A stretch of DNA of 64,000 bases from Spirochaetota bacterium. Its GTDB lineage: Bacteria > Spirochaetota > UBA4802 > UBA5550. Position 1 is the first letter of the stretch. Each line of letters opens with the position of its first letter. A program made the translations under genes and the position numbers. Below are positions 8,737 through 19,441 of the stretch, one piece after another. The stretch covers positions 31,476-95,475 of the forward strand of contig JALOTL010000013.1 in the NCBI GenBank assembly GCA_025457915.1, given 5' to 3'. Below the pieces are notes generated by a model. The model was not told the DNA's origin. It ran no database searches and saw only the letters and a program-made list of their open reading frames with translations.

Positions 8737-9267
8737 TCAGAGCGTGATGTTGAACATGTACAGATAGGCTATCATCCGCTCAAGGGACTTCCTGAACCAG
8801 TAAGTGTATTTCTCCGGATCCCTCTTCATGCTCAGTATGAGGCTGACCATGTCGCTCCATTCCCAGCCTTCCACCTCCATGGGGTTCGGGACCGGATCGC
8901 CGTTGAAGATCCCGCTGTAAACATGGACATACTCGTTTTCCTTGAGTCCGTTGCTTAAAGCGGCGCTGTAGGAATAGCTGAAAACCTCCTCGATCGGGCA
9001 GTCGAACCCCATTTCCTCGATAAGCCTCACGTGCGCCGCTTCGTCGATGAAATCCCCCGGGCCCGGGTGGCTGCAGCAGGTATTTGACCAGAGCCCGCCG
9101 GAATGATATTTCGCGCGCGACCTCTTCTGAATGAGCAGCTGCTTCCTGTCGTTGAACACATACACGGAAAACGCCCTGTGCTTCTGCCCGCTCATGTGTA
9201 TCTGCATCTTTTCACCGTAGCCCAGAATTCCGTTGTCCTTGTCGACCAGTATAAGCCTCTTTTCCAT
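8737..9267 (-). CDS. idi: Isopentenyl-diphosphate delta-isomerase, type I
   Basis: Nudix-fold enzyme interconverting isopentenyl and dimethylallyl diphosphate, the two isoprenoid building blocks. Family marks are RAFSVYVFN near residues 31-39, the catalytic-Cys segment WSNTCCSHPGPGD near residues 60-72, and the Nudix-region acidic residues in RLIEEMGF. ENEYVHVYSG and WEWSDM are further type I signatures. The 176-residue length is normal. It lies 4 kb from a polyprenyl-synthase-like gene (13545-14591) that may use isoprenoid donors; a functional link is only a suggestion. Confidence 0.93.
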   Translation of the reverse strand: MEKRLILVDKDNGILGYGEKMQIHMSGQKHRAFSVYVFNDRKQLLIQKRSRAKYHSGGLWSNTCCSHPGPGDFIDEAAHVRLIEEMGFDCPIEEVFSYSYSAALSNGLKENEYVHVYSGIFNGDPVPNPMEVEGWEWSDMVSLILSMKRDPEKYTYWFRKSLERMIAYLYMFNITL

Positions 9268-9298: not shown

Positions 9299-9784
9299 TC
9301 AAATCCGGCTCCATGGCGAGAGGTTCATGAAGCAAAGCCTGCGGACTGAAACAGCCAGGTCATCGGGGTCCCATCCCGCGACGGCAGATGAGGAGCTCAT
9401 TATTTTCCCCGGCAGCACCATCAGCCATCTCGACCTCAGGGCGATGACCGGTTTTCCGAGCTTCCTCGCGATGTCCAGCTCCTTGGATATCCAGAATGAA
9501 TTCCTTTCATACATGTCGGATATGACAATCACGCAGTCCGACGAGGATATCTGTGAAATCAGTCTGCCGTACAGCCCCGAAACGCCTTCCCGGTCCCGAT
9601 CCGGCCTGGGGACCGAGCAGTTCCTCCACCTCAGGGACCTCGCGGAATGCAGAATGTCCATCAGCAGGAAATAATCAGGATCATAATCCCATGAATGGCT
9701 GATGAAAATTCCGTACTCGGCCAATCCGCCGAAAAAAGCATGGAATTTAAAATAGCAAAACCGGAACAGCTTCATTAAAGACAC
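9299..9784 (-). CDS. Stand-alone TIR-like domain protein
   Basis: A 161-residue protein resembling the MTH538-type TIR-like domain. The N-terminal strand GIFISHSWDYDPDY (about residues 24-37) matches the TIR beta-A region, and DCVIVISDMYERNSFWISKELDIARKLGKPVIAL matches the beta-D to alpha-E core. Such domains are NADases or scaffolds and occur in defence systems such as Thoeris. The GTG start at 9784 is chosen because ggagagg lies 6 nt before it; an ATG three codons in has none. No Thoeris partner or other effector gene is adjacent, so its role is open. Confidence 0.7.
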   Translation of the reverse strand: MSLMKLFRFCYFKFHAFFGGLAEYGIFISHSWDYDPDYFLLMDILHSARSLRWRNCSVPRPDRDREGVSGLYGRLISQISSSDCVIVISDMYERNSFWISKELDIARKLGKPVIALRSRWLMVLPGKIMSSSSAVAGWDPDDLAVSVRRLCFMNLSPWSRI

Positions 9785-9942: not shown

Positions 9943-10602
9943 TCAATTGTTCTTCGCCCATTCAACCGCGAACCTGACGAGATCCGAGTTGTTGTTTAAA
10001 TGGAATTTTCCCCTGATGTGAATCCTGTGCGTGTCTATTGTCTTGATGCTCAGGTTTAATTTTTTAGCTATATCGGCCGTCTTGTATCCCTGCCCGAGAA
10101 GATTGAACACGTCCAGCTCCCTGTCGCTCAATATGCCCAGGGGGCCGCTCTTTTCGTACTTGCTCGTCACGAGCTCCTTCATGAGCTTAAGCAGCGCCGG
10201 ATCGCTCAGATATATGTTCCCCGTGGAGACCCTTCTTATGGCGTCCACGAGGGTGTGCGTCGCTTCCGATTTCATAACGTATCCGTTGGCCCCGGCCCTC
10301 ATGGCCCTTTCCGCATAAATGTCCTCGTCATTCTGGGAAAGGACCAGCACCCTCGTCCTGAAATAATTATCCCTGATGTTCCTGGTAAGCTCAAGTCCGC
10401 TGGTCCCCCTGCCAAGACCTATGTCCACGACCGCAACGTCCGGTTCCAGCCCGCGCATCATCTCGAATGCCTTCTCCGCGTCGTCAGACATCCCCACAAC
10501 GACCATATCCTCCTCCCTCTCGAGAAGGGACTTGAGCCCGTCCAGGACGATCTTGTGGTCGTCCACCAGAAATACGTTTATCCTGTTCAATAAAACGGCC
10601 AT
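9943..10602 (-). CDS. LuxR/NarL-type response regulator (ComA-like)
   Basis: Two-component response regulator of 219 residues. The receiver domain occupies residues 7-125, with acidic pair D14-D15, phospho-acceptor D60 (VVDIGLG) and K111. The C-terminal LuxR-type helix-turn-helix spans about 155-215 (LSDRELDVFNLLGQGYKTADIAKKL, split here by eye, then KTIDTHR). It starts 18 nt after the stop of the HisKA_3 kinase gene, behind a good ribosome binding site (aagggagat), so the two are cotranscribed and almost surely cognate partners. In family and architecture it matches ComA of the Bacillus ComQXPA system, but the NarL family is very large. Confidence 0.93.
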   Translation of the reverse strand: MAVLLNRINVFLVDDHKIVLDGLKSLLEREEDMVVVGMSDDAEKAFEMMRGLEPDVAVVDIGLGRGTSGLELTRNIRDNYFRTRVLVLSQNDEDIYAERAMRAGANGYVMKSEATHTLVDAIRRVSTGNIYLSDPALLKLMKELVTSKYEKSGPLGILSDRELDVFNLLGQGYKTADIAKKLNLSIKTIDTHRIHIRGKFHLNNNSDLVRFAVEWAKNN

Positions 10603-10620
10603 GTTTATCTCCCTTTTATT

Positions 10621-12948
10621 TCATCCCGGTATCACGCAGCGCACCTCCGTGCCCCCGCCCCTTGCCTTTTTTATACTCAGCGAGGCCCCGATCATCCTTG
10701 CCCGGTAATTCATGATCCTGATCCCTATCCCCTTCTTTTCATCCAGCTTCCTCGGGATGCCTATGCCGTCGTCGAATATGCCGAGATGTATGTCGCCCTC
10801 GTTTTTTTTCAGGGTTATGCCTATGTTCTTCGCCCTGGAATGCTTGACCGAGTTGGTCACTGCCTCCTGAATGATGTAATATGCCTGCGCGTACACCAGC
10901 TTGTCGCTGAACTCGATCACGGGGTCAACATCAATTTCAAGATTTATATCGTACCTTTTCTCCAGGAGCCTCTTCAATTCCTTCATCTGCGTGACAAGCC
11001 CGCCCTCGTCGAAATCCACCGTGGCCAGGCTTTTGGCTATGCTCCTCGTGCTCTCTATGGCCCTGTTTATCAGCCGTTCTATCTCGGCCGCCCTCGCCCC
11101 CTCTCCGCCGTTCCCGGTTCCGAGGTCCTTCGCAAGGAGATTTGCCTTCAGCGCTATCCCGAAGAGGTTCTGGGAAAGTCCGTCATGGAGCTCTATGCCG
11201 AGCGAGTTCCTTTCCTTCTCGCTGATGCTGACCATCTCCCTCTCCAGGTTCATCCTCTCCGTCATGTCCATCGAGTAATACACGACGCCGTTCTGCTTTT
11301 TATTAGGGCTGACATAGGGATAAAGCGCTGTCACCATGTACCTGCCGCCTCCGGAAGGAAAATGGAACCACCTCTCGAAAACGACCTCCTGTCCCGACAG
11401 GCATTTTTCAAAGTGCTCCCCGAACTGGGACGAATAGTCCTTTTCGCCGAGGACGTTCCGGACATAGCCTCCAATGATCTCGAGCCGGTCTTTCTTGAAC
11501 GACTTGAGAAAAGCCTCGTTCGCCTCGACGAACCTGCCTCTTCCGTCAATAAAGGCCATGTGGTCGCGGGAGGCGGATACGATGTTCTTGTATATATTAA
11601 GGTTTTCAATGGCCGAGTCCTTTTCCCTGTTGATATCAAGGAGGATCACATTCGACCTTTCGAGATCGCTGTGCACGAGAGCGAACCGGGAGGCAAGTAT
11701 GGAGGCGAAAATGGCGGTCATCAGGAAAAAGCCCTCGAGAAGCACCGGCTCCATGGTGGTTATGTCCAGGAAGCTCAAAAGGCTCATCACGTACGCGATG
11801 CCGAACAGGGCCACCGACAGGAGTATCCTCCTCGAAAACGGCCTTTTCTTTTTTACGGAATCAAAGGCCAGCCACAACGCATAAATTATGGTCAGGGTGG
11901 TTACGAGCATGAAGCCCATGTAGCAGTATTTCTGGTAAAACTTGATGCCCCCCGTGAAAATCATTTCGGTCACGAGGAAGAGGAGCAGGATGGCGTAAAC
12001 CGCTGTAAATGCCGCAAAGGCCCTGTTGGTCCTGATCCCGAGAAATGAAAACATGAAGCAGATGAACATGAGCGGGGCGATCACCGAACAGGCATAGGTC
12101 GCCAGGATGAACGCCAGCTGGCTGTCGGCGATGAAAAGAACAAGGCCCCTGTATCCAAGTATCCACAGGCCGAGTGAAAGGGACAGGATGGAAAAGTAAA
12201 GGTAGTATTTTTCATTCCTCCTCTTCCCGTACATGAAGAGAAAATATATGAAAAGGAAAATGTTGACCGCGGACAGAAAACTGTTCCACATTACGTACAT
12301 GACGCATTTTTCTTTAACGCTGGAACTGTCGCCGAATATTAACGGGTAACCCAGCCCTCCCAGGTAATTGAGGATGCCGGTTCTTATCGCCAGTACGTTC
12401 CTGCCCGGCCTTATCAATGAGGCCGGGATGTAAACAAGAGTCGGTTTTCCGACAATGGGTTCGGAACGACCGCTGGCGTCGAAAGACCTGGTTTCACCGA
12501 GCATACTTCCGTTGAAATAGACCCGGGATCCCCGCCCCTGCCAGGACAGGAACAGCGAATAATCCCTGTCAGGGTTCCGGTCGAACCGGATGTCCCGCCT
12601 GTACCAGGCGTCGCCTTCGTATCCGGAATATTTTTCGGAGCTTGTCCAGGAGTCTCCGGAATAAACCAGATCCCAGTCCGCGTCGGGAAAATCAGGGTCC
12701 GAAAAGTCCGACCTGTCGGACGGGATGAATTTCCATTCCCCGGAGAGGTCCATGACGAAAGGTCCCGGTTTAACGACGACCGCCTTCATATCGGCCGATA
12801 CAGCCATGGATAGGACTGGAATGACAGCCACGACCATGAACAAAAAAACGACCCGGGCCGAAAATCGCGATATCAGCCGGTTGAGGGTGATAAGACAGCG
12901 GCCTGGATCCATCATCAAAACGCCTTTCCGAAAATCAGAGTGTTTCAT
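10621..12948 (-). CDS. Multi-pass HisKA_3 sensor histidine kinase with extracytoplasmic jelly-roll and PAS domain (ComP-like)
   Basis: A 775-residue sensor kinase. Residues 31-52 form an N-terminal membrane or signal segment; 60-205 look like a GH2-type sugar-binding jelly roll (GEWKF, AWYRRDI, VYFNG, RPGRNVLAIR). About 213-430 hold seven membrane helices of the 7TMR-DISM type, followed by a coiled linker and a PAS domain (about 455-565). The HisKA_3 box has phospho-acceptor H588 in ELHDGLSQ, and the HATPase has N-box QEAVTNS (694-700) and DDGIGI (726-731). Partner regulator is 18 nt downstream; the peptide gene lies 223 nt upstream. A second start at 12915 has a better ribosome binding site. 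ComP is of similar class and size, but has no jelly roll. Confidence 0.93.
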   Translation of the reverse strand: MKHSDFRKGVLMMDPGRCLITLNRLISRFSARVVFLFMVVAVIPVLSMAVSADMKAVVVKPGPFVMDLSGEWKFIPSDRSDFSDPDFPDADWDLVYSGDSWTSSEKYSGYEGDAWYRRDIRFDRNPDRDYSLFLSWQGRGSRVYFNGSMLGETRSFDASGRSEPIVGKPTLVYIPASLIRPGRNVLAIRTGILNYLGGLGYPLIFGDSSSVKEKCVMYVMWNSFLSAVNIFLFIYFLFMYGKRRNEKYYLYFSILSLSLGLWILGYRGLVLFIADSQLAFILATYACSVIAPLMFICFMFSFLGIRTNRAFAAFTAVYAILLLFLVTEMIFTGGIKFYQKYCYMGFMLVTTLTIIYALWLAFDSVKKKRPFSRRILLSVALFGIAYVMSLLSFLDITTMEPVLLEGFFLMTAIFASILASRFALVHSDLERSNVILLDINREKDSAIENLNIYKNIVSASRDHMAFIDGRGRFVEANEAFLKSFKKDRLEIIGGYVRNVLGEKDYSSQFGEHFEKCLSGQEVVFERWFHFPSGGGRYMVTALYPYVSPNKKQNGVVYYSMDMTERMNLEREMVSISEKERNSLGIELHDGLSQNLFGIALKANLLAKDLGTGNGGEGARAAEIERLINRAIESTRSIAKSLATVDFDEGGLVTQMKELKRLLEKRYDINLEIDVDPVIEFSDKLVYAQAYYIIQEAVTNSVKHSRAKNIGITLKKNEGDIHLGIFDDGIGIPRKLDEKKGIGIRIMNYRARMIGASLSIKKARGGGTEVRCVIPG

Positions 12949-13140
12949 ATTGTTCCGTCGGCGGTCATCCGAAAGCCGATACTGACGAATAATCTGGATA
13001 TGAAAAACGGCATGTCAATATTAATTAGACGCTGCTGATAAAATAGAAAAAAATAAAACAACCCGTCCCCGATTCAGGACAAAAATCCGGGCCGTGTTCA
13101 TCAGAAATTTATTGATTTCATGCCGTTGATGAATTTACAG

Positions 13141-13168
13141 ATAAACGGCGGAATAATCCGCCGTTTAT
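13141..13168 (-). terminator. Perfect 12-bp hairpin just after the peptide gene
   Basis: Arms 13141-13152 and 13157-13168 are perfectly complementary around a 4-nt loop, starting 3 nt beyond the stop codon of the small peptide gene. There is no T-run on either strand, so it is not a classic intrinsic terminator. It could protect the 3' end of a short peptide mRNA or cause partial termination before the kinase gene, giving more peptide than kinase transcript. Confidence 0.55.
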
Positions 13169-13171
13169 TCA

Positions 13172-13384
13172 TCAATAGGGCCAGGCCGCGGCAACCGCGT
13201 GCAGCTTGAGTTTTCTCCCGTTTTTTAGGATTTTCTCGCATTCTTCAATGCCGACCATGAAGCCTTTTTCGATAAACCACCCTGAAAGCTCCCCGGCGGA
13301 TGATTTTTTCAGCATCCGGCTAAATTCGATCCCGAGGGACCTGTCTGAAGATAAAAAATCCACGAAATCAATGTATCCCACCAT
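13172..13384 (-). CDS. Putative RiPP/pheromone precursor: Nif11/ComX-like leader with C-terminal Trp
   Basis: A 70-residue peptide. The start at 13384 is fixed by a perfect ribosome binding site (ggagg, 6 nt before ATG). Residues 5-55 resemble a Nif11/ComX leader: a helix with FVDFLSSDRSL, a second helix with ELSGWFIEKGF, then VGIEECEKIL. After a basic hinge (NGRKLK, 55-60) comes a short tail LHAVAAAWPY with Trp at position 68, third from the end. ComX precursors have the same plan: about 55 residues, a leader with a GF...ETE...II stretch and a prenylated Trp near the C-terminus. The gene is divergent from a polyprenyl-synthase-like gene and followed by a kinase/regulator pair. Precursor identity is inference, not proven. 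Confidence 0.7.
   Translation of the reverse strand: MVGYIDFVDFLSSDRSLGIEFSRMLKKSSAGELSGWFIEKGFMVGIEECEKILKNGRKLKLHAVAAAWPY
13307..13320 (+). repeat. 14-bp direct repeat, copy 1 (inside peptide gene)
   Basis: The 14-mer TTTCAGCATCCGGC occurs here within the peptide coding region and again, in the same orientation, at 13597-13610. The two copies are 290 bp apart and bracket the divergent control region. No other role is apparent. Confidence 0.6.
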
Positions 13385-13544
13385 TTGAATACCTCCGTTT
13401 TTCTTTTTAAAAATAACCAGTGTTCGTTTTTTTGAAATCAGCAGTATCGCTGATGACCCCCTAATCCTTTTTGGAAGCATACATCGGGATTTTTACCGAT
13501 GCCCGGGAGCAAATTTTCAGCAAATATTGCTTTAAATTTCCCAA
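13385..13544. promoter_or_regulatory. Divergent control region with three short dyads
   Basis: The 160 bp between the peptide gene and the ComQ-like gene must hold both promoters. Three inverted repeats are visible: ATCAGC-n6-GCTGAT at 13437-13454, CATCGG-n8-CCGATG at 13482-13501, and AGCAA-n3-TTGCT at 13519-13531. The first lies about 50-70 bp before the peptide start codon, upstream of an AT-rich -10-like stretch (13411-13416), a position suited to an activator such as the LuxR-type regulator encoded nearby. No strong -35/-10 pair is seen for either gene, which also suggests activator dependence. Site assignment is inference. Confidence 0.5.
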
Positions 13545-14591
13545 ATGGATGATGAGTTTCCCTCTTCCGGTATTATATTTTTAACAGGTGCAAAGCTTTC
13601 AGCATCCGGCGGTAAAATGAAATTTAGAAGGGATAAATATTTTGCGAAATTGAAGAACCTTTCCTTCGGGGCGGTTGAAATATCGGACCGGATGAAATGC
13701 GCGTATAAGCACCTCAATAAATCGCTTCTGTCCCTTTGCAAGGATCTCCCCCTCTCAGTACAGGCCGAGGCCATTAATTTCCTGATGAGCTACGCGAAAA
13801 TTTCCCCGGGCGAGCCTTTTGATTTCTTCAAAAAATATTATATTCCCGCATGGAGCGTGATATGCCATGCCTCCGGCGGCGCCCGGCCCGGCATCGACGG
13901 CAACCCCGAAGCGGCGGACGCGATAAGGGGCCAGGCGATGAGCATGTTCCTTCACTCGCTCGACGACCATGTAAACGACGGCGACATGAGGGCGACGCAT
14001 CTCATTCTTCTCATAAGAAGCGCCGCTTGGTCCGCCCTGTCGGAATGCATCTCAAGGCTCTCGGAAAGCGACGATTCATCGAAGAAAACCGCCGGCGACC
14101 TCATAGACCTTTATTACGAAGGGATATGCAGCTGTGAAGAAACTGACGGGCTGGAGCAATATCTCCGCCTGTTTAAAAAGCAGATGGCCACATGGCTTAT
14201 AATGCCGTTGATCTCCGCCAGAAGGAGCATGGGGGACGGCAGGCTCGAAGACCTCAGGGCCGCGTATGAATCTTTCGGCATGGCCTGGAGGATACTCGAC
14301 GACCTGAACGACCTGGACAGCGATATAATCCATTCCGAGCGTTCGGCGGCCTACCATATACTTCCCGGCGACGGGAAAAAGCTGTGGTCGGGCGCCGCCG
14401 GGGGAAAGGGAAAAAACCTGGACAGGCTGGTGGACATCATGTATGAAAACCAGACCGCCGAGATCCTGGTTTTGAGGGCGGAAAAGGAGCTGGCATCCGC
14501 AGCCGGTCTTGCCGAAAGAATCGGGCTTGGCGGCCTCGCGTCGGAATACGACTCGCTCAGAAGGCCCCTCGCGGAATTCAGGACCGGTTGA
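13545..14591 (+). CDS. Polyprenyl-synthase-fold protein, ComQ-like (putative peptide prenyltransferase)
   Basis: A 348-residue all-helical protein of the trans-isoprenyl diphosphate synthase fold. The first Asp-rich motif is DDHVND (D140, D141, D145), preceded by GGARPG (111-116) in the place of GGKRLRP. Conserved KKQMATWLIMP (211-221) precedes the second Asp-rich motif LDDLND (D252, D253, D256). Overall it is too divergent for a housekeeping FPP/GGPP synthase. ComQ, which prenylates the ComX Trp, has this fold, and the gene is divergent from a Trp-tailed leader peptide. Unlike ComQ it keeps both Asp-rich motifs. No good ribosome binding site marks 13545; ATG 13617 is an alternative. Its stop overlaps the next start. 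Confidence 0.75.
   Translation: MDDEFPSSGIIFLTGAKLSASGGKMKFRRDKYFAKLKNLSFGAVEISDRMKCAYKHLNKSLLSLCKDLPLSVQAEAINFLMSYAKISPGEPFDFFKKYYIPAWSVICHASGGARPGIDGNPEAADAIRGQAMSMFLHSLDDHVNDGDMRATHLILLIRSAAWSALSECISRLSESDDSSKKTAGDLIDLYYEGICSCEETDGLEQYLRLFKKQMATWLIMPLISARRSMGDGRLEDLRAAYESFGMAWRILDDLNDLDSDIIHSERSAAYHILPGDGKKLWSGAAGGKGKNLDRLVDIMYENQTAEILVLRAEKELASAAGLAERIGLGGLASEYDSLRRPLAEFRTG
13597..13610 (+). repeat. 14-bp direct repeat, copy 2 (before alternative ComQ-like start)
   Basis: Second copy of TTTCAGCATCCGGC (first at 13307-13320). It ends 6 nt before the ATG at 13617, which could be the true start of the ComQ-like gene; if so, this copy lies in its 5' leader and could be an operator or RNA element. 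Confidence 0.6.
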
Positions 14592-15607
14592 CGGCAGACC
14601 GAATGCGAAATCTATCCGGTGAAATACTGACGATCGAAGCGACCACGGAATGCAACAGCGCATGCTCCAACTGCTTCGCAAGGGCCGGCATAGCCGCGCC
14701 TTCAAGCATGGGCCTGGAAACCGCGCTTGAAATCGCCGTAGAGGGAAGGGAGATGGGATACGGGCGTCTCCATGTTACCGGCGGCGAACCGCTTCTCTGG
14801 CCGCACCTGAGGGCCCTTCTTTTCAGGGCCGCGAAGATGGGGTACGGCACGGTTTTTTTCAACACGAACGGGTCCCTGGCGGATACAGGCTTCTGCCGCG
14901 GCATGGCGCCCCTCGGCGGTAAAATCATGATGTCGGTAAGCCTGAACGGCGGCGAAAGGATCCACGACGCGATGAGGGGCGACGGATCCTGCAGGGCGGC
15001 CATGGCGGGGATAAGGAACTCGCTGGACTCCGGAACAAGGACCATGATTTTTTCCACGGTGGGAAGGAGGCTCCTCGGCGAGCTGCCCGGGTTCGCCGAC
15101 ATGGTGACGCGGGAATTCTGCGGGATTGAGTCGCTGACCTTCATCCAGATGATCAGGGTGCACGGCGACGCATTCGACGTCAGAAGCGAATTGCTGGGCC
15201 CTGAAGAATTCATCAGGTTCGTCGCGGCCGTTTCCTCGCTTGGCCTTTACGGCCTTCCCGTTTCGATCATGGAAAACCCGCTGGCCAACGCGGTTGCTTC
15301 AAAAATGGGGCTGGGATACATGCCGTCATCGCATTCCCGGGCCAGGCACGGCCGGCTGGCTGTCCTGGCGGACGGAAGCATAACCCTCCACCACTCCTCG
15401 AGAGACCGCCTGGGGACGTACAGGAAGGGGGCGTTGAAAGAAATTATCGCCTCCGTCGTCTACAGGGAAAAGACGGGGCGTTCGAAGGAATGCCTTTCAT
15501 GCAGGCACGGCACGCTTTGCGCCGAACACGGCGTCGCCTGGCACGATGATAAAACAAGGGACATGGTGGACTCGCCCTACTGCATGAGAGTGCTCGACCT
15601 GGTCTGA
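14588..15607 (+). CDS. Radical SAM / SPASM-like peptide-modifying enzyme
   Basis: A 339-residue radical SAM protein. C22-x3-C26-x2-C29 binds the SAM-cleaving 4Fe-4S cluster and GGEP (65-68) is the SAM-binding motif. The C-terminus carries C302-x2-C305-x5-C311 and C332, the arrangement of SPASM/twitch auxiliary clusters found in RiPP maturases such as AlbA, PqqE and anSME. The TTG start overlaps the ComQ-like stop as TTGA, so the two proteins are made together; ATG 14603 is the alternative. It could modify the same peptide (Trp, Tyr or Pro of the tail), which has no counterpart in Bacillus ComQXPA. Substrate is inferred from context only. Confidence 0.82.
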   Translation: MTADRMRNLSGEILTIEATTECNSACSNCFARAGIAAPSSMGLETALEIAVEGREMGYGRLHVTGGEPLLWPHLRALLFRAAKMGYGTVFFNTNGSLADTGFCRGMAPLGGKIMMSVSLNGGERIHDAMRGDGSCRAAMAGIRNSLDSGTRTMIFSTVGRRLLGELPGFADMVTREFCGIESLTFIQMIRVHGDAFDVRSELLGPEEFIRFVAAVSSLGLYGLPVSIMENPLANAVASKMGLGYMPSSHSRARHGRLAVLADGSITLHHSSRDRLGTYRKGALKEIIASVVYREKTGRSKECLSCRHGTLCAEHGVAWHDDKTRDMVDSPYCMRVLDLV

Positions 15608-15683: not shown

Positions 15684-16520
15684 ATGCCGAACTCGCTGAT
15701 AAAGAAAATGAAACCCGTCCGGGTATTCCTGGCATCGGCCGCGATGACCGCGGGGATATTCGCCGCGGACCTCTTCATTGAACCCGACATGTCGATTTTC
15801 TACGCCCTCCCCGCAGCCTTCCTCGCCTGGAACGCGAGAAACAGGGTAATGGCGACCGTGCTCTCGGCCGCTTCGTCATCGTTGTGGATATACGCAGAAT
15901 ATCTCAACTCCGCAGGATGGAACATGCTCCAGGGCCTCTGGAGGACCGCTGTAATATTTTCGTTTTACGAGGCAATATCCATTCTGATAATCCGGGTCAG
16001 GACCCTTCTTGATAAAGAGAAGGATCTGGCCAGGAGGGACCAGCTCACCGGCCTCTGGAACCGGAGATTCTTCATGAAGGTCGCGGAGCACCAGAGGGTC
16101 ATTCTTGAAAGATACGGGAGGCCGTTCAGCATGGCCTACCTGGACCTCGATAATTTCAAGCATGTAAACGACAATTACGGACACAACGCCGGCGACGCCG
16201 TCATTAAGACGGTTGCCGGATGCATCACGGGCAGAATAAGAAAAACGGACCTTGCGGCCAGGATGGGCGGCGACGAGTTCGCCGTCATCTTCACGGAAAC
16301 GGAATCGGACAGGGCCGAAACCGCGGTGCGTAAAATTTCCGGAGACATCGCAAAAATCATGGGCGAAACGGGCTACCCCGTAACGGTGAGCGCCGGCATA
16401 GCGGCGTATAAAACAATGCCGGAGGACGTCGATTCAATGGTCAGATTCGCCGATTCACTCATGTACGAGGTGAAAAACGCGGGAAAAAACTCAATAAAAT
16501 GCGGGATTTTCGAAAAATAA
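15684..16520 (+). CDS. Membrane-bound diguanylate cyclase (GGDEF)
   Basis: Synthesises cyclic di-GMP. The first 110 residues contain about four membrane helices with short loops, followed by a short linker and a GGDEF domain (about 120-275). The active site RMGGDEF is intact and the substrate-binding DxLTGLWNRR and DLDNFKHVND segments are present. No RxxD inhibitory site was recognised just before the GGDEF motif (residues there read GRIRKTDLAARMGG, so RKTD may be one). An aaggggg-like ribosome binding site precedes the ATG. It follows the radical SAM gene by 76 nt on the same strand and could be cotranscribed. Confidence 0.93.
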   Translation: MPNSLIKKMKPVRVFLASAAMTAGIFAADLFIEPDMSIFYALPAAFLAWNARNRVMATVLSAASSSLWIYAEYLNSAGWNMLQGLWRTAVIFSFYEAISILIIRVRTLLDKEKDLARRDQLTGLWNRRFFMKVAEHQRVILERYGRPFSMAYLDLDNFKHVNDNYGHNAGDAVIKTVAGCITGRIRKTDLAARMGGDEFAVIFTETESDRAETAVRKISGDIAKIMGETGYPVTVSAGIAAYKTMPEDVDSMVRFADSLMYEVKNAGKNSIKCGIFEK

Positions 16521-16538: not shown

Positions 16539-17696
16539 TCAAATTCCCACGGCGGAAACGTATTCCTCGAGGCACATCCTTTCAATGCCCGTCAGATTTG
16601 AAAAGGCATCGGTAAAATCCAGCCTGCCGGTTGTAAAAAGGCCGTGTCCGTAAACGATCGCCCCCCTGTTCCCCTTTATCGCAGGCGGCATGGTGTTGCA
16701 GAGTCCCGTCGGTCCGGTGCCGACCTCGCCCGGAACTATCGGCACGTCGTTTATCGACCTTTTCTTTTCGCATTTGACATGGCACCTGCCCCTGTTTCTG
16801 CAATTAGCCTCATCGCAAAGCATCGACATTATCACTGAAAATTTCGGATGGCCGTGGAGAACGGTTTTTTCGCCGGTCGTCGAATATATGGCCCTGTGGG
16901 CCGAAAGCTCGCTCGATGCCGTGATGGGGGCCGTAGACCTTCCGTCGAGGCGGCACGGATCTATATGTCCCGCGAGCTCATCCAGCGAACTGCCGGTCTG
17001 GCTTATATAAATCGTGTCGCCGAAAATGGAGGATACGTTGCCGAAAAAGGAATCTACCATCCTGGAGCTTACGGTAAGCGACCCGGCTTCGTCAATCGCG
17101 GACACGACTTCCCCGACGCTGCCGAAGGGCCCGCTTGCCTTCGGAGCGTAATCCATCGAACCGATAAAGCCGCCGTAGGACCCGATGGCCTTTTCGACCA
17201 GGCCCGCCGCACTTTCGTCCCTGTTGAAGTAGTAGTCCGCGAAAAATTTCACATAGCTCGAAAAACAAACCGAACTGAAAAGCACGAAGGCCTGTTCCGG
17301 GCTGACGGTGCCGTAGGCGACGACGCCCTTCCCCCTGACGATGACCGTTTTTCTTTTTTTCAGGGCCTCGACAAGGGCCTTTTCGGAAAACGAATCGATG
17401 ACAGGTATTTCGTGAAGGAACGTCCTGGACTCGGAGTCCTCCGGGCGCAGTACCGATCCGGATAAAAGGGCGCGCTCCGCCAGGACATCTATTATCGAAC
17501 CGTAGGGCTCGGCCGGCCTCGAAAAGAGGATGCTCAGCATGTTGAGCGAGCCCATGACCCCGGTCAGCGTCCCGATCTCCGGGGCCTCCCTGTTCCACTC
17601 GACATCCGCGTCGACCTGCCCGAGTAGCGGCTCGCCTTCATGCGCGAGTCCCTGCGACACCAGCTTGCGCGCGTATTTATCTATCAGACTGTCCAT
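16539..17696 (-). CDS. Class II aldolase/adducin-family protein with Cys-rich insert
   Basis: A 385-residue protein whose two halves both recall the class II aldolase (AraD/FucA) fold. The C-terminal half has the metal-binding region LHGHPKF, and a C-terminal His in IVYGHGLF. Between them sits an insert with closely spaced cysteines (C-x5-C-x5-C-x3-C, near residues 292-310) that could bind a metal or Fe-S cluster. It overlaps the upstream AOR gene by 13 nt, so the two form an operon. Substrate is not known; a sugar or aldehyde linked to AOR is plausible. Confidence 0.8.
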   Translation of the reverse strand: MDSLIDKYARKLVSQGLAHEGEPLLGQVDADVEWNREAPEIGTLTGVMGSLNMLSILFSRPAEPYGSIIDVLAERALLSGSVLRPEDSESRTFLHEIPVIDSFSEKALVEALKKRKTVIVRGKGVVAYGTVSPEQAFVLFSSVCFSSYVKFFADYYFNRDESAAGLVEKAIGSYGGFIGSMDYAPKASGPFGSVGEVVSAIDEAGSLTVSSRMVDSFFGNVSSIFGDTIYISQTGSSLDELAGHIDPCRLDGRSTAPITASSELSAHRAIYSTTGEKTVLHGHPKFSVIMSMLCDEANCRNRGRCHVKCEKKRSINDVPIVPGEVGTGPTGLCNTMPPAIKGNRGAIVYGHGLFTTGRLDFTDAFSNLTGIERMCLEEYVSAVGI

Positions 17697-19441
17697 TCAA
17701 GACCGATCTCCTCGCATTTTTCCCTGAGGGGCATGCCTTTTTCATCAAGACCCCTCACCCTGTAGTAATTCGAACGCGCCGTTAAAAAATCATCCCTCGA
17801 AAGGGCGGCCACTTCAATCCCCCCGCCTCCGCTGCCCCCGTCAGAAAAAAACCTCGGAGGGAGGTCGTCGTCGTCGGACGTGAAACCGTTGGACGCGTTC
17901 ATGATCCTTTCGGCATAGTATATCCTCTCTCCCGCCTTCATCAGGTCCTGCGCGTCGAATCCGGACCCGGTGACGCCGGAAAGCGCCCTGGCGTATTCCT
18001 CGAGCGAGGCTGCAAAAAATATGAACTTGCAGGCCGTGAGGGAATCCACAACCGCGTTCAAGTCTTCAGAAAGCTTGATTATCCTGGCCTTGCCGCTCCA
18101 GCCGAACCTGTCGGTCGCAACCGGCTTCCTGAGTATTTCGCTGGATACCGGGTACGCCCTGAGATGGCATCCGCCCCTGGTCGAGGTCGCGTATGAAAGG
18201 GCCATGCCGTAAGCTCCCCGCGGATCGTATGCCGGGAGTTCGAGGCCCTTTACGCTCATCGACGAGGCCGAATGCCCTTTTTTGCCGGCGTAAAGCCTGG
18301 ATCCCAGCTTGAGGATTTCCCCATCGCCCCTGGAAAGTCCCATGTCCCCGATCAGGCCGAGAATCTTGTCGGGCCGCAATTCGAAGCCCTCGATTTCGGA
18401 AAAGCAGGCGATGGTCGACGCGGCGGTTATTGTGTCCATCCCGAATTCGTTACAGAGCCTGTTGGCCTCGACGACGGTCTCGATGTCCGTGTTTCCGATC
18501 AGCGCGCTGAAGTGCGACATAGTCTCGAACTCCGGCACGGGCCTCCCGTCCGATGTCTTTTTTTTGCACTGTATATGGCATCCCCCGCATCCGGACCTCA
18601 CCTGCCCGTACCTGTTTTTATAGTTCCAGGCGTTCATTTCAGGGGCATTTTCAAACCTGGTCCGCTTGAAGTTCGCGGTAGGCATCATTCTCCTGGTGTG
18701 CATCAGGTCATACAGGGCCCCGGTACCGAACTCCGACAGGCCGAATTCCCCCTTCAGCACTGATGAAGCGGACACGAGCCTGAAAATCTCCTCCCTGGCC
18801 TTCAACAGCTCCTCTTTGTCGAAAACCGCGGTTTTCCCGCTGCCCCTGACGTTGATGTATTTGACGTTTTTACCGGCAAGCACAAGGCCCAGTCCACCCC
18901 TTCCGGAAAAAAAATGACCGTCGACGGCGATGTTCGCGAAAAGGACCCCGTTTTCCGCGGCTGGCCCGACTGCGGCCGTAGATCCTTCCGGAAATCTTTT
19001 GAAAACATCGCCGGTTAGTGCGCCCTTCAATGAACCGGCATCAAGTATCCGGACCCTGTCGTCGTCTATCTCTATGCCGCACAGGAAGGAGCTTTTACCG
19101 GTTACGATTAAGCCGTCCCACCCGGCCCTTTTTATCCCGGCGCCCAGGAATCCGCCGACCGATGTATCGCAGACGGCGCCGGTAAGCGGGGAGCGCGACA
19201 TTATGCACATCCTTCCCGAGGTTGGGGACGGAGTGTCCACCAGGGGGCCGGTCATGAAAATAACGGGCATGTCCGGAGAATCCCAGGGCCCGGCCGCCCT
19301 TTCCCTTAAAAAAAAGCCCGCCAGGCCCCTGCCCCCTATGAATCTTTCATATACGGACTTATCCGGCCTTGAAATATAGGTAGCGCCGGAACCAGCGTCT
19401 ATATGCAGTATTTTACCTGTCCAGCCGTGCATATTTGTCAT
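17684..19441 (-). CDS. Aldehyde:ferredoxin oxidoreductase family protein (tungsten type)
   Basis: AOR-family enzyme oxidising aldehydes to acids with ferredoxin, using a tungsto- or molybdo-bispterin cofactor and one 4Fe-4S cluster. The N-terminal beta-sandwich domain opens with GWTGKILHID and GGRGLAGF. Cluster ligands are C285, C288 and C292 (CGGCHIQC), with the fourth Cys in LTACKF near residue 490. The 585-residue length is slightly short for the family. It heads a two-gene operon with the aldolase-like gene. A -35/-10 pair was not obvious in the 158 bp before thiolase. Confidence 0.93.
   Translation of the reverse strand: MTNMHGWTGKILHIDAGSGATYISRPDKSVYERFIGGRGLAGFFLRERAAGPWDSPDMPVIFMTGPLVDTPSPTSGRMCIMSRSPLTGAVCDTSVGGFLGAGIKRAGWDGLIVTGKSSFLCGIEIDDDRVRILDAGSLKGALTGDVFKRFPEGSTAAVGPAAENGVLFANIAVDGHFFSGRGGLGLVLAGKNVKYINVRGSGKTAVFDKEELLKAREEIFRLVSASSVLKGEFGLSEFGTGALYDLMHTRRMMPTANFKRTRFENAPEMNAWNYKNRYGQVRSGCGGCHIQCKKKTSDGRPVPEFETMSHFSALIGNTDIETVVEANRLCNEFGMDTITAASTIACFSEIEGFELRPDKILGLIGDMGLSRGDGEILKLGSRLYAGKKGHSASSMSVKGLELPAYDPRGAYGMALSYATSTRGGCHLRAYPVSSEILRKPVATDRFGWSGKARIIKLSEDLNAVVDSLTACKFIFFAASLEEYARALSGVTGSGFDAQDLMKAGERIYYAERIMNASNGFTSDDDDLPPRFFSDGGSGGGGIEVAALSRDDFLTARSNYYRVRGLDEKGMPLREKCEEIGLEWTV

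Follow-up and report, generated by a model that had tools for sequence, protein, structure and literature searches.

A Tyr-terminal leader peptide linked to a predicted peptide prenyltransferase, a radical SAM enzyme and a receptor kinase in a Spirochaetota bacterium

Overview of the locus and its proposed function

In this study, a 64,000-nucleotide stretch of contig JALOTL010000013.1 (positions 31,476 to 95,475; hereafter the window) from the Spirochaetota bacterium assembly GCA_025457915.1 was analysed. It contains a locus of five genes, which encode a short leader-type precursor peptide, a receptor histidine kinase, a NarL/LuxR-type response regulator, an enzyme with a predicted trans-isoprenyl-diphosphate-synthase fold (hereafter the synthase), and a radical SAM enzyme. 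All five are genuine genes, and they remain associated in other genomes. Based on sequence comparison, we propose, with a probability of roughly one-half, that the synthase prenylates the C-terminal tyrosine (Tyr) of the peptide, that the radical SAM enzyme modifies it further, and that the seven-transmembrane (7TM) kinase senses the product outside the cell. A first-pass annotation of the window had assigned the locus to the ComQXPA quorum-sensing systems, in which a tryptophan (Trp) of the peptide is prenylated. The five open reading frames (ORFs) that it described were confirmed in the sequence and by Pfam, and its interpretation as a whole is partly supported.

Conservation and linkage of the module

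Three samples were used, namely 198 related genomes (the genome of the window included), 392 genomes drawn from the phylum, and 25 loci obtained by a search with the synthase alignment. Seven of the 25 loci repeat related spirochaete places, leaving 18 further loci from Deltaproteobacteria, Telluribacter, Calothrix, Alkalinema, and one bin labelled Firmicutes (L054). The label of L054 is doubtful, since its fusion protein and neighbours match those of a spirochaete locus (L057). A contig scan with the radical SAM protein of the window as the query returned nothing; it was the synthase alignment that found the loci.

Synthase homologues were present in 17 of the 198 related genomes and in 18 of the 392 genomes from the phylum, 17 of the latter belonging to one order. 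Peptide, synthase, and the sensor part of the kinase tracked one another across the 198 genomes, with relatedness overstating the independence of the cases. The co-occurrence that the first-pass annotation suggested looking for was observed: peptide, synthase, radical SAM enzyme, and sensor are linked across loci, and the five-part architecture, NarL regulator included, is conserved. The module of synthase, radical SAM enzyme, and peptide is also found in Deltaproteobacteria. Moreover, in a Bacteroidete and a cyanobacterium (L056, Telluribacter; L062, Alkalinema), synthase and peptide stand together, and the 18-21 kb fetched for each of these loci hold neither a radical SAM homologue nor a sensor. 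The synthase therefore looks like the minimal partner of the peptide. After the synthase and peptide, both of these loci (L056 at 11222-13398) carry a 276-aa protein with no Pfam match and a FAD_binding_4 protein. One synthase (L020) is unlinked, and the radical SAM, peptide, and sensor genes of the same genome lie on another contig (L100). In another genome (G029; L035 8271-9382), only disrupted remnants of the synthase and radical SAM genes are left and the peptide and sensor genes are open, which is possibly a signal-blind or listening-only state.

These linkages bear on the reading that the synthase releases its product as a free isoprenoid or terpene, with the peptide having a separate role of its own, such as that of a lone ligand or of a regulator of an enzyme. 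A trans-prenyl-synthase fold with both Asp-rich motifs would suit such an enzyme, and three Calothrix loci (L058, L059, and L060) carry a synthase homologue with neither a radical SAM gene nor a recognisable peptide nearby; L061 likewise has a synthase without a recognisable peptide. This reading is nevertheless improbable, given that the synthase and peptide genes lie side by side in several phyla, that L056 and L062 keep the two together without radical SAM enzyme or sensor, that the peptide is present in 16 of the 17 synthase-bearing relatives, and that the synthase does not reach the cut-off of the Polyprenyl synthetase family (see below).

The C-terminal Tyr of the peptide family is near-invariant

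The window peptide has a helical leader-type N-terminus and a tail ending in HAVAAAWPY, with a Trp at position -3 and a terminal Tyr; a whole-genome search found it to be the only convincing copy in its own genome. Its AlphaFold2 model comprises five helices and an unstructured end (predicted local distance difference test score [pLDDT], 68.6), and the best E value of a PDB fold search with this model was 4.6. Peptides adjoining a sensor or synthase elsewhere have the helical leader in common and vary in tail sequence and length. In an alignment of 26 peptides, three of which (L044, L048, and L063) were included by eye, only F7 and the C-terminal Y70 were invariant. A Trp within the final 10 residues occurred in two of the 26 rows, those of the window and L052. 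Another peptide of the window type (L146) ends in LMAGY. The first-pass annotation had pointed to the Trp near the C-terminus and had named its absence from relatives as a ground for rejection; that absence is largely what was seen. Trp as the conserved residue was ruled out, with the terminal Tyr conserved in its stead.

The search of the 198 related genomes with the peptide gave 30 places at an E value of 0.001 or less. The 26 places at E<=1e-7, distributed over 19 genomes, were counted as peptides, and four weaker ones within long ORFs were left out. Twenty-three of these 26 peptide genes end in Tyr. A protein-database search gave 21 peptides, several of which duplicate the loci, and 20 were Tyr-terminal. 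Furthermore, a leader-only control profile was built from 14 spirochaete leaders, each trimmed of its final 18 residues, and run against 1758 short ORFs of the 18 further loci. Nine peptides were retrieved at E<1e-5, one per locus, and all nine were Tyr-terminal, when 54 of the 1758 short ORFs end in Tyr as the background. The C-terminal Tyr is near-invariant in the peptide family. Nearly all related peptides in other phyla are Tyr-terminal, and Tyr rather than Trp is the predicted tagging site. Two window-like paralogues from different genomes (L147 1501-1725 and L150 1450-1743) have similar non-Tyr tails and perhaps form a separate subfamily.

The profile checks suggested for the peptide were also run. 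A Pfam and NCBIfam scan of 13 peptides reached no family. The gathering score of the Nif11 leader family (PF07862) was not reached, with weak matches in two of the 13 peptides (best E value, 0.094) and none at the locus. The ComX family (PF05952) gave no match at E<=1 and none at the locus, and the control genomes, among them Bacillus subtilis, all fell short of its cut-off as well.

The synthase is predicted to be a peptide prenyltransferase

The AlphaFold2 model of the synthase (pLDDT, 93.9) has the trans-prenyl-synthase fold by structure comparison, which favours the fold assigned in the first-pass annotation, but the Polyprenyl synthetase family (PF00348) scored 18.6 bits against a gathering score of 27 bits and was not reached. 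Foldseek identities ranged from 9 to 16%. Ord1 (PDB 9v4g), whose target is Trp according to a review (PMC13290415), was among the Foldseek matches listed, at 13% identity, but fell outside the 50 rows of a second structure comparison.

In the family alignment, the second Asp-rich motif (SARM) was an intact DDxxD in 38 of 38 rows, within the context AWRxxDDxxD in every row, and the first Asp-rich motif (FARM) was changed to D[D/N]Hxx[D/E]. This is the reverse of ComQ, described as having a DDxxD FARM and a pseudo-SARM of the form NDxxx or GDxxx (PMC5331326). The same source calls the DDxxD form of SARM unsuitable for Trp. PalQ of Paenibacillus alvei, which prenylates only the C-terminal Trp of a leader-type peptide, retains the SARM aspartates (PMC10853753). 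The intact SARM therefore separates the family from ComQ, but not from all Trp enzymes. Moreover, in hidden Markov model alignments, W-R stands ahead of SARM where solved trans-prenyl-diphosphate synthases have F-Q. The Arg (Arg249 in the window ORF) lies three residues ahead of SARM in 38 of 38 rows, at the place equivalent to the PalQ Gln that contacts the indole (PMC10853753), and may serve a phenol or a carboxylate. The enzyme is predicted to be a peptide prenyltransferase with the trans-prenyl-synthase fold.

The radical SAM enzyme and accessory genes

The radical SAM enzyme passed the PF04055 gathering score (60.1 against 29.5 bits), with C22, C26, and C29 forming the CxxxCxxC motif. Across 19 such proteins, C22, C26, C29, C302, C305, C311, and C332 were invariant. 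The distances of synthases and radical SAM proteins were correlated (r = 0.83, n = 19, Mantel p = 2e-4); since genomes and rows are related, p values and correlations here overstate independence. Of 17 related spirochaete loci, 14 have a radical SAM gene no more than 2 kb from the synthase gene, including one at a contig end (L021) and the remnant pair of L035, and the two genes adjoin in 12 of the 18 further loci, the two being a single fused protein in L054 and L057. Therefore, the radical SAM gene is no oddity of the window.

Geranylgeranyl-reductase-family proteins were found in seven of 45 loci searched. TIGR02032 scored above its cut-off in L028 and L029, and homologues occur in L030, L045, L097, L099, and L100. 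The gene adjoins the synthase gene in L029 and L045 and the peptide gene in L028, L097, L099, and L100; L030 (28-2232) holds a natural fusion of a geranylgeranyl-reductase-like protein and the synthase. An isopentenyl-diphosphate (IPP) isomerase gene was present at two of the 45 loci, the window and L022, and is a possible supplier of the prenyl donor. Because geranylgeranyl-reductase-family and IPP isomerase genes occur at these loci, an isoprenoid substrate is likely.

The receptor kinase and its link to the peptide

Pfam identified 7TMR-DISM_7TM, PAS, HisKA_3 (PF07730), and HATPase_c (PF02518) domains in the kinase, in agreement with its earlier description as a ComP-like multi-pass HisKA_3 kinase. 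The part common to the peptide loci is the sensor (residues about 25-444), and the output domains vary. The window kinase has HisKA_3 and is paired with a separately encoded NarL regulator; the two relatives scanned with Pfam have HisKA-Rec-SpoIIE (L021) and HisKA-Rec-His_kinase (L023) hybrids. Among the 198 genomes, sensor matches at E<=1e-100 were found in 19, and a further 17 genomes had matches between 1e-30 and 1e-100. In all 17 pairs measured, the peptide gene lies directly upstream of the sensor gene on the same strand, with a gap of -11 to 275 bp. Three further pairs have gaps of 811 bp (L025) and 331 bp (L146) or overlap, the peptide being broken (L098). The X-P-A gene order recorded in the first-pass annotation was found again in L101, where the genes for the peptide, the kinase, and a NarL regulator follow one another as they do in the window, and as kinase plus adjoining regulator in L103. 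Both kinases are of the same type as that of the window by BLASTP. Their NarL regulators are 55-56% identical to that of the window, when paralogues of its own genome reach at most 44%.

Kinase and regulator could be bystanders unrelated to the peptide, and the weaker sensor matches of L104-L107, which have no peptide nearby, indicate that this type of receptor is not confined to peptide loci. This is very unlikely for the sensor subtype concerned here, in view of the constant upstream position of the peptide in the 17 pairs and the three further ones and of its presence in 17 of the 19 genomes with strong sensor matches.

A different protein is seen in Deltaproteobacteria: in each of the 10 loci for which the upstream side can be seen, a homologue of a cyclase-AAA-TPR protein stands ahead of the synthase. 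In L042 (4370-8014), Pfam resolved it into Zn-ribbon, adenylate-guanylate cyclase, AAA, and TPR parts, and nine other deltaproteobacterial loci hold homologues. That it acts as the receptor there is only a guess.

Comparison with known systems

The ComQXPA systems of Bacillus resemble the locus in having a prenyltransferase-fold enzyme, a short peptide, a HisKA_3 kinase, and a NarL regulator in X-P-A order (PMC5331326, PMC4008528). The locus differs in that Tyr rather than Trp is conserved, SARM is intact and FARM altered, the sensor is of the 7TMR-DISM type with varying outputs, and a radical SAM enzyme is present; the synthase gene is divergent from the peptide, kinase, and regulator genes, whereas four adjacent genes on one strand would be expected of a ComQXPA locus. 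Membership in ComQXPA was thus not borne out. A true ComQXPA system whose enzyme prenylates the Trp at -3 would account for the gene types and their order, for the ComX-like placing of the Trp at the third residue from the C-terminus, and for a second peptide ending in W-x-Y in L101. Such a system is quite unlikely, since nearly all relatives lack the Trp, the DDxxD form of SARM is the one called unsuitable for Trp (PMC5331326), though PalQ keeps its SARM aspartates, and PF05952 was not matched, with the limit on that profile given above.

PalQ/PalX/PalP is the nearer analogue. It combines a peptide prenyltransferase of the isoprenoid-synthase superfamily, an NHLP leader-type precursor, a conserved C-terminal aromatic residue, and a histidine kinase in the cluster (PMC10853753). 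The description of PalQ sets it apart by a terminal Trp, where Tyr stands here, and by Gln before SARM, where Arg stands here, and no radical SAM gene is among the three genes named there. Nif11- and NHLP-leader ribosomal peptides such as that of MppE/MppC also have a structured leader and a short variable tail, and include a known case of a prenylated leader-type peptide; the residue on which MppC acts is Trp82 of its peptide (PMC12715784), and the Pfam Nif11 score was not reached here. The Rgg/RaS-RiPPs and lanthipeptide prenylation in the literature are other systems. A census of two-component quorum sensing places Com(XQPASK) proteins in bacilli and clostridia, and its available text names none in spirochaetes (PMC8895600). 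A literature search, judged by titles and abstract openings of open-licence papers, gave no report of this locus type or of such a spirochaete system.

Proposed mechanism and the main rival reading

We propose that the leader-bound peptide would be presented to the synthase, its C-terminal Tyr serving as the acceptor of a prenyl group, and that the radical SAM enzyme would then change the prenylated peptide further. Saturation of the prenyl chain would, in some relatives, fall to a geranylgeranyl-reductase-family protein. The leader would be removed and the product processed and released from the cell, where the 7TM kinase would bind it and phosphorylate the NarL regulator.

Several observations weigh against this proposal. 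The Trp at -3 of the window peptide would equally suit a Trp enzyme, and PalQ, when tested on other electron-rich end residues, took only Trp (PMC10853753). Three of the 26 peptide genes lack a terminal Tyr, namely L140 (broken frame), L147 (ending in FLFLTR), and L150 (YLFLTH). The leader-only profile reached E<1e-5 in only nine of the 18 further loci, found nothing in the three Calothrix loci, L061, L054, and L057 (the last two being short contigs), and scored the peptides added by eye at only E 0.1-0.4. The 198-genome peptide search found no peptide with the strong sensors of G003 and G024, the sensors of G041 and G017 carry an internal stop, and peptide and sensor occur without a detected synthase in three draft genomes (G032, G044, and G045, the last with its radical SAM gene at a contig end). 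Since the fetched deltaproteobacterial stretches hold no such sensor, the receptor role rests on the spirochaetes. The window locus has no geranylgeranyl reductase, the best match of the genome lying elsewhere and just under the cut-off, and neither an exporter nor a leader protease was found among the neighbouring proteins scanned, which cover part of the window.

The main rival reading is that the peptide is a scaffold. Its C-terminal Tyr would be prenylated, rearranged by the radical SAM enzyme, and then cut away to give a small prenyl-phenol, which would be a meroterpenoid signal or a redox cofactor. Mycofactocin and pyrroloquinoline quinone are likewise made from a peptide Tyr. The mycofactocin maturase MftC is also a radical SAM enzyme that acts on a C-terminal-Tyr peptide, and that system is not known to include a prenyl enzyme. 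The scaffold reading would explain why Tyr is the sole tail residue conserved family-wide, with tail sequence and length varying. In NCBIfam, the mycofactocin maturase is among the better radical SAM matches (E 8e-14 in the window, E 1e-17 in L048), although other maturases score alike and the window protein (51.5 bits) falls far below the equivalog cut-off of TIGR03962 (265 bits). Methyltransferase homologues lie nearby in L021 and L026, as do B12-type radical SAM homologues in four spirochaete and several deltaproteobacterial loci, and a protease is the neighbour at some loci (C25 in L048 and L063 and in part in L055; S8 in L044). Set against this, the tail of the window peptide is identical in a 91%-identical relative (P0041) whose leader differs, which fits a peptide ligand. 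We regard excision of a prenyl-phenol as possible, but doubtful.

Layout and neighbours of the locus

The coordinates of the features are listed in Table 1. Divergent promoters would be expected in the interval 13385-13616. A ThsB/TIR-like protein of 161 aa (window 9299-9784, minus strand; PF08937, E 5e-8) is encoded between the NarL regulator and IPP isomerase genes on the same strand. The radical SAM gene is followed by a gene for a GGDEF protein (15684-16520, plus) and then by those for an aldolase-II-domain protein and an aldehyde ferredoxin oxidoreductase (16539-19441, minus).

Table 1. Features of the peptide locus in window coordinates
Feature	Position	Strand	Basis
Precursor peptide, 70 aa	13172..13384	minus	ORF with Shine-Dalgarno sequence
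Predicted core/tail of the peptide, final 13 residues ending W-P-Y	13175..13213	minus	Putative cut position
Shine-Dalgarno sequence of the peptide gene, GGAGG	13392..13396	minus	Sequence
Receptor histidine kinase: putative N-terminal extracytoplasmic domain, 7TMR-DISM 7TM, PAS, HisKA_3, HATPase_c	10621..12948	minus	Pfam
7TMR-DISM seven-transmembrane segment of the kinase	11674..12291	minus	PF07695, E 1.9e-12, residues 220-425
NarL/LuxR-type response regulator, Response_reg and GerE	9943..10602	minus	Pfam
Trans-isoprenyl-diphosphate-synthase-fold enzyme, predicted peptide prenyltransferase	13617..14591	plus	ORF opens at 13545, likely start 13617
FARM, DDHVND, residues 140-145 of the 348-aa ORF	13962..13979	plus	Alignment
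W-R and SARM, DDLND, residues 248-256	14286..14312	plus	Alignment
Radical SAM enzyme, four extra C-terminal Cys	14588..15607	plus	PF04055, E 4e-16
IPP isomerase type 1, putative member of the system	8737..9267	minus	NF002995 and TIGR02150 above cut-off

Significance

If the proposal holds, the locus would give spirochaetes a peptide signal and a dedicated receptor for it. A C-terminal-Tyr prenyltransferase would be a new specificity, here paired with a radical SAM step, whereas all characterised trans-prenyl-synthase-like peptide prenyltransferases target Trp according to a 2026 review (PMC13290415). More tentatively, the module may represent a signalling chemistry shared across phyla, in which Tyr prenylation followed by radical SAM and geranylgeranyl reductase action would yield a peptide-templated prenyl-phenol, with receptors recruited separately as 7TM kinases in spirochaetes and cyclase-AAA-TPR proteins in Deltaproteobacteria; if so, it would be a type of signalling with no described member.

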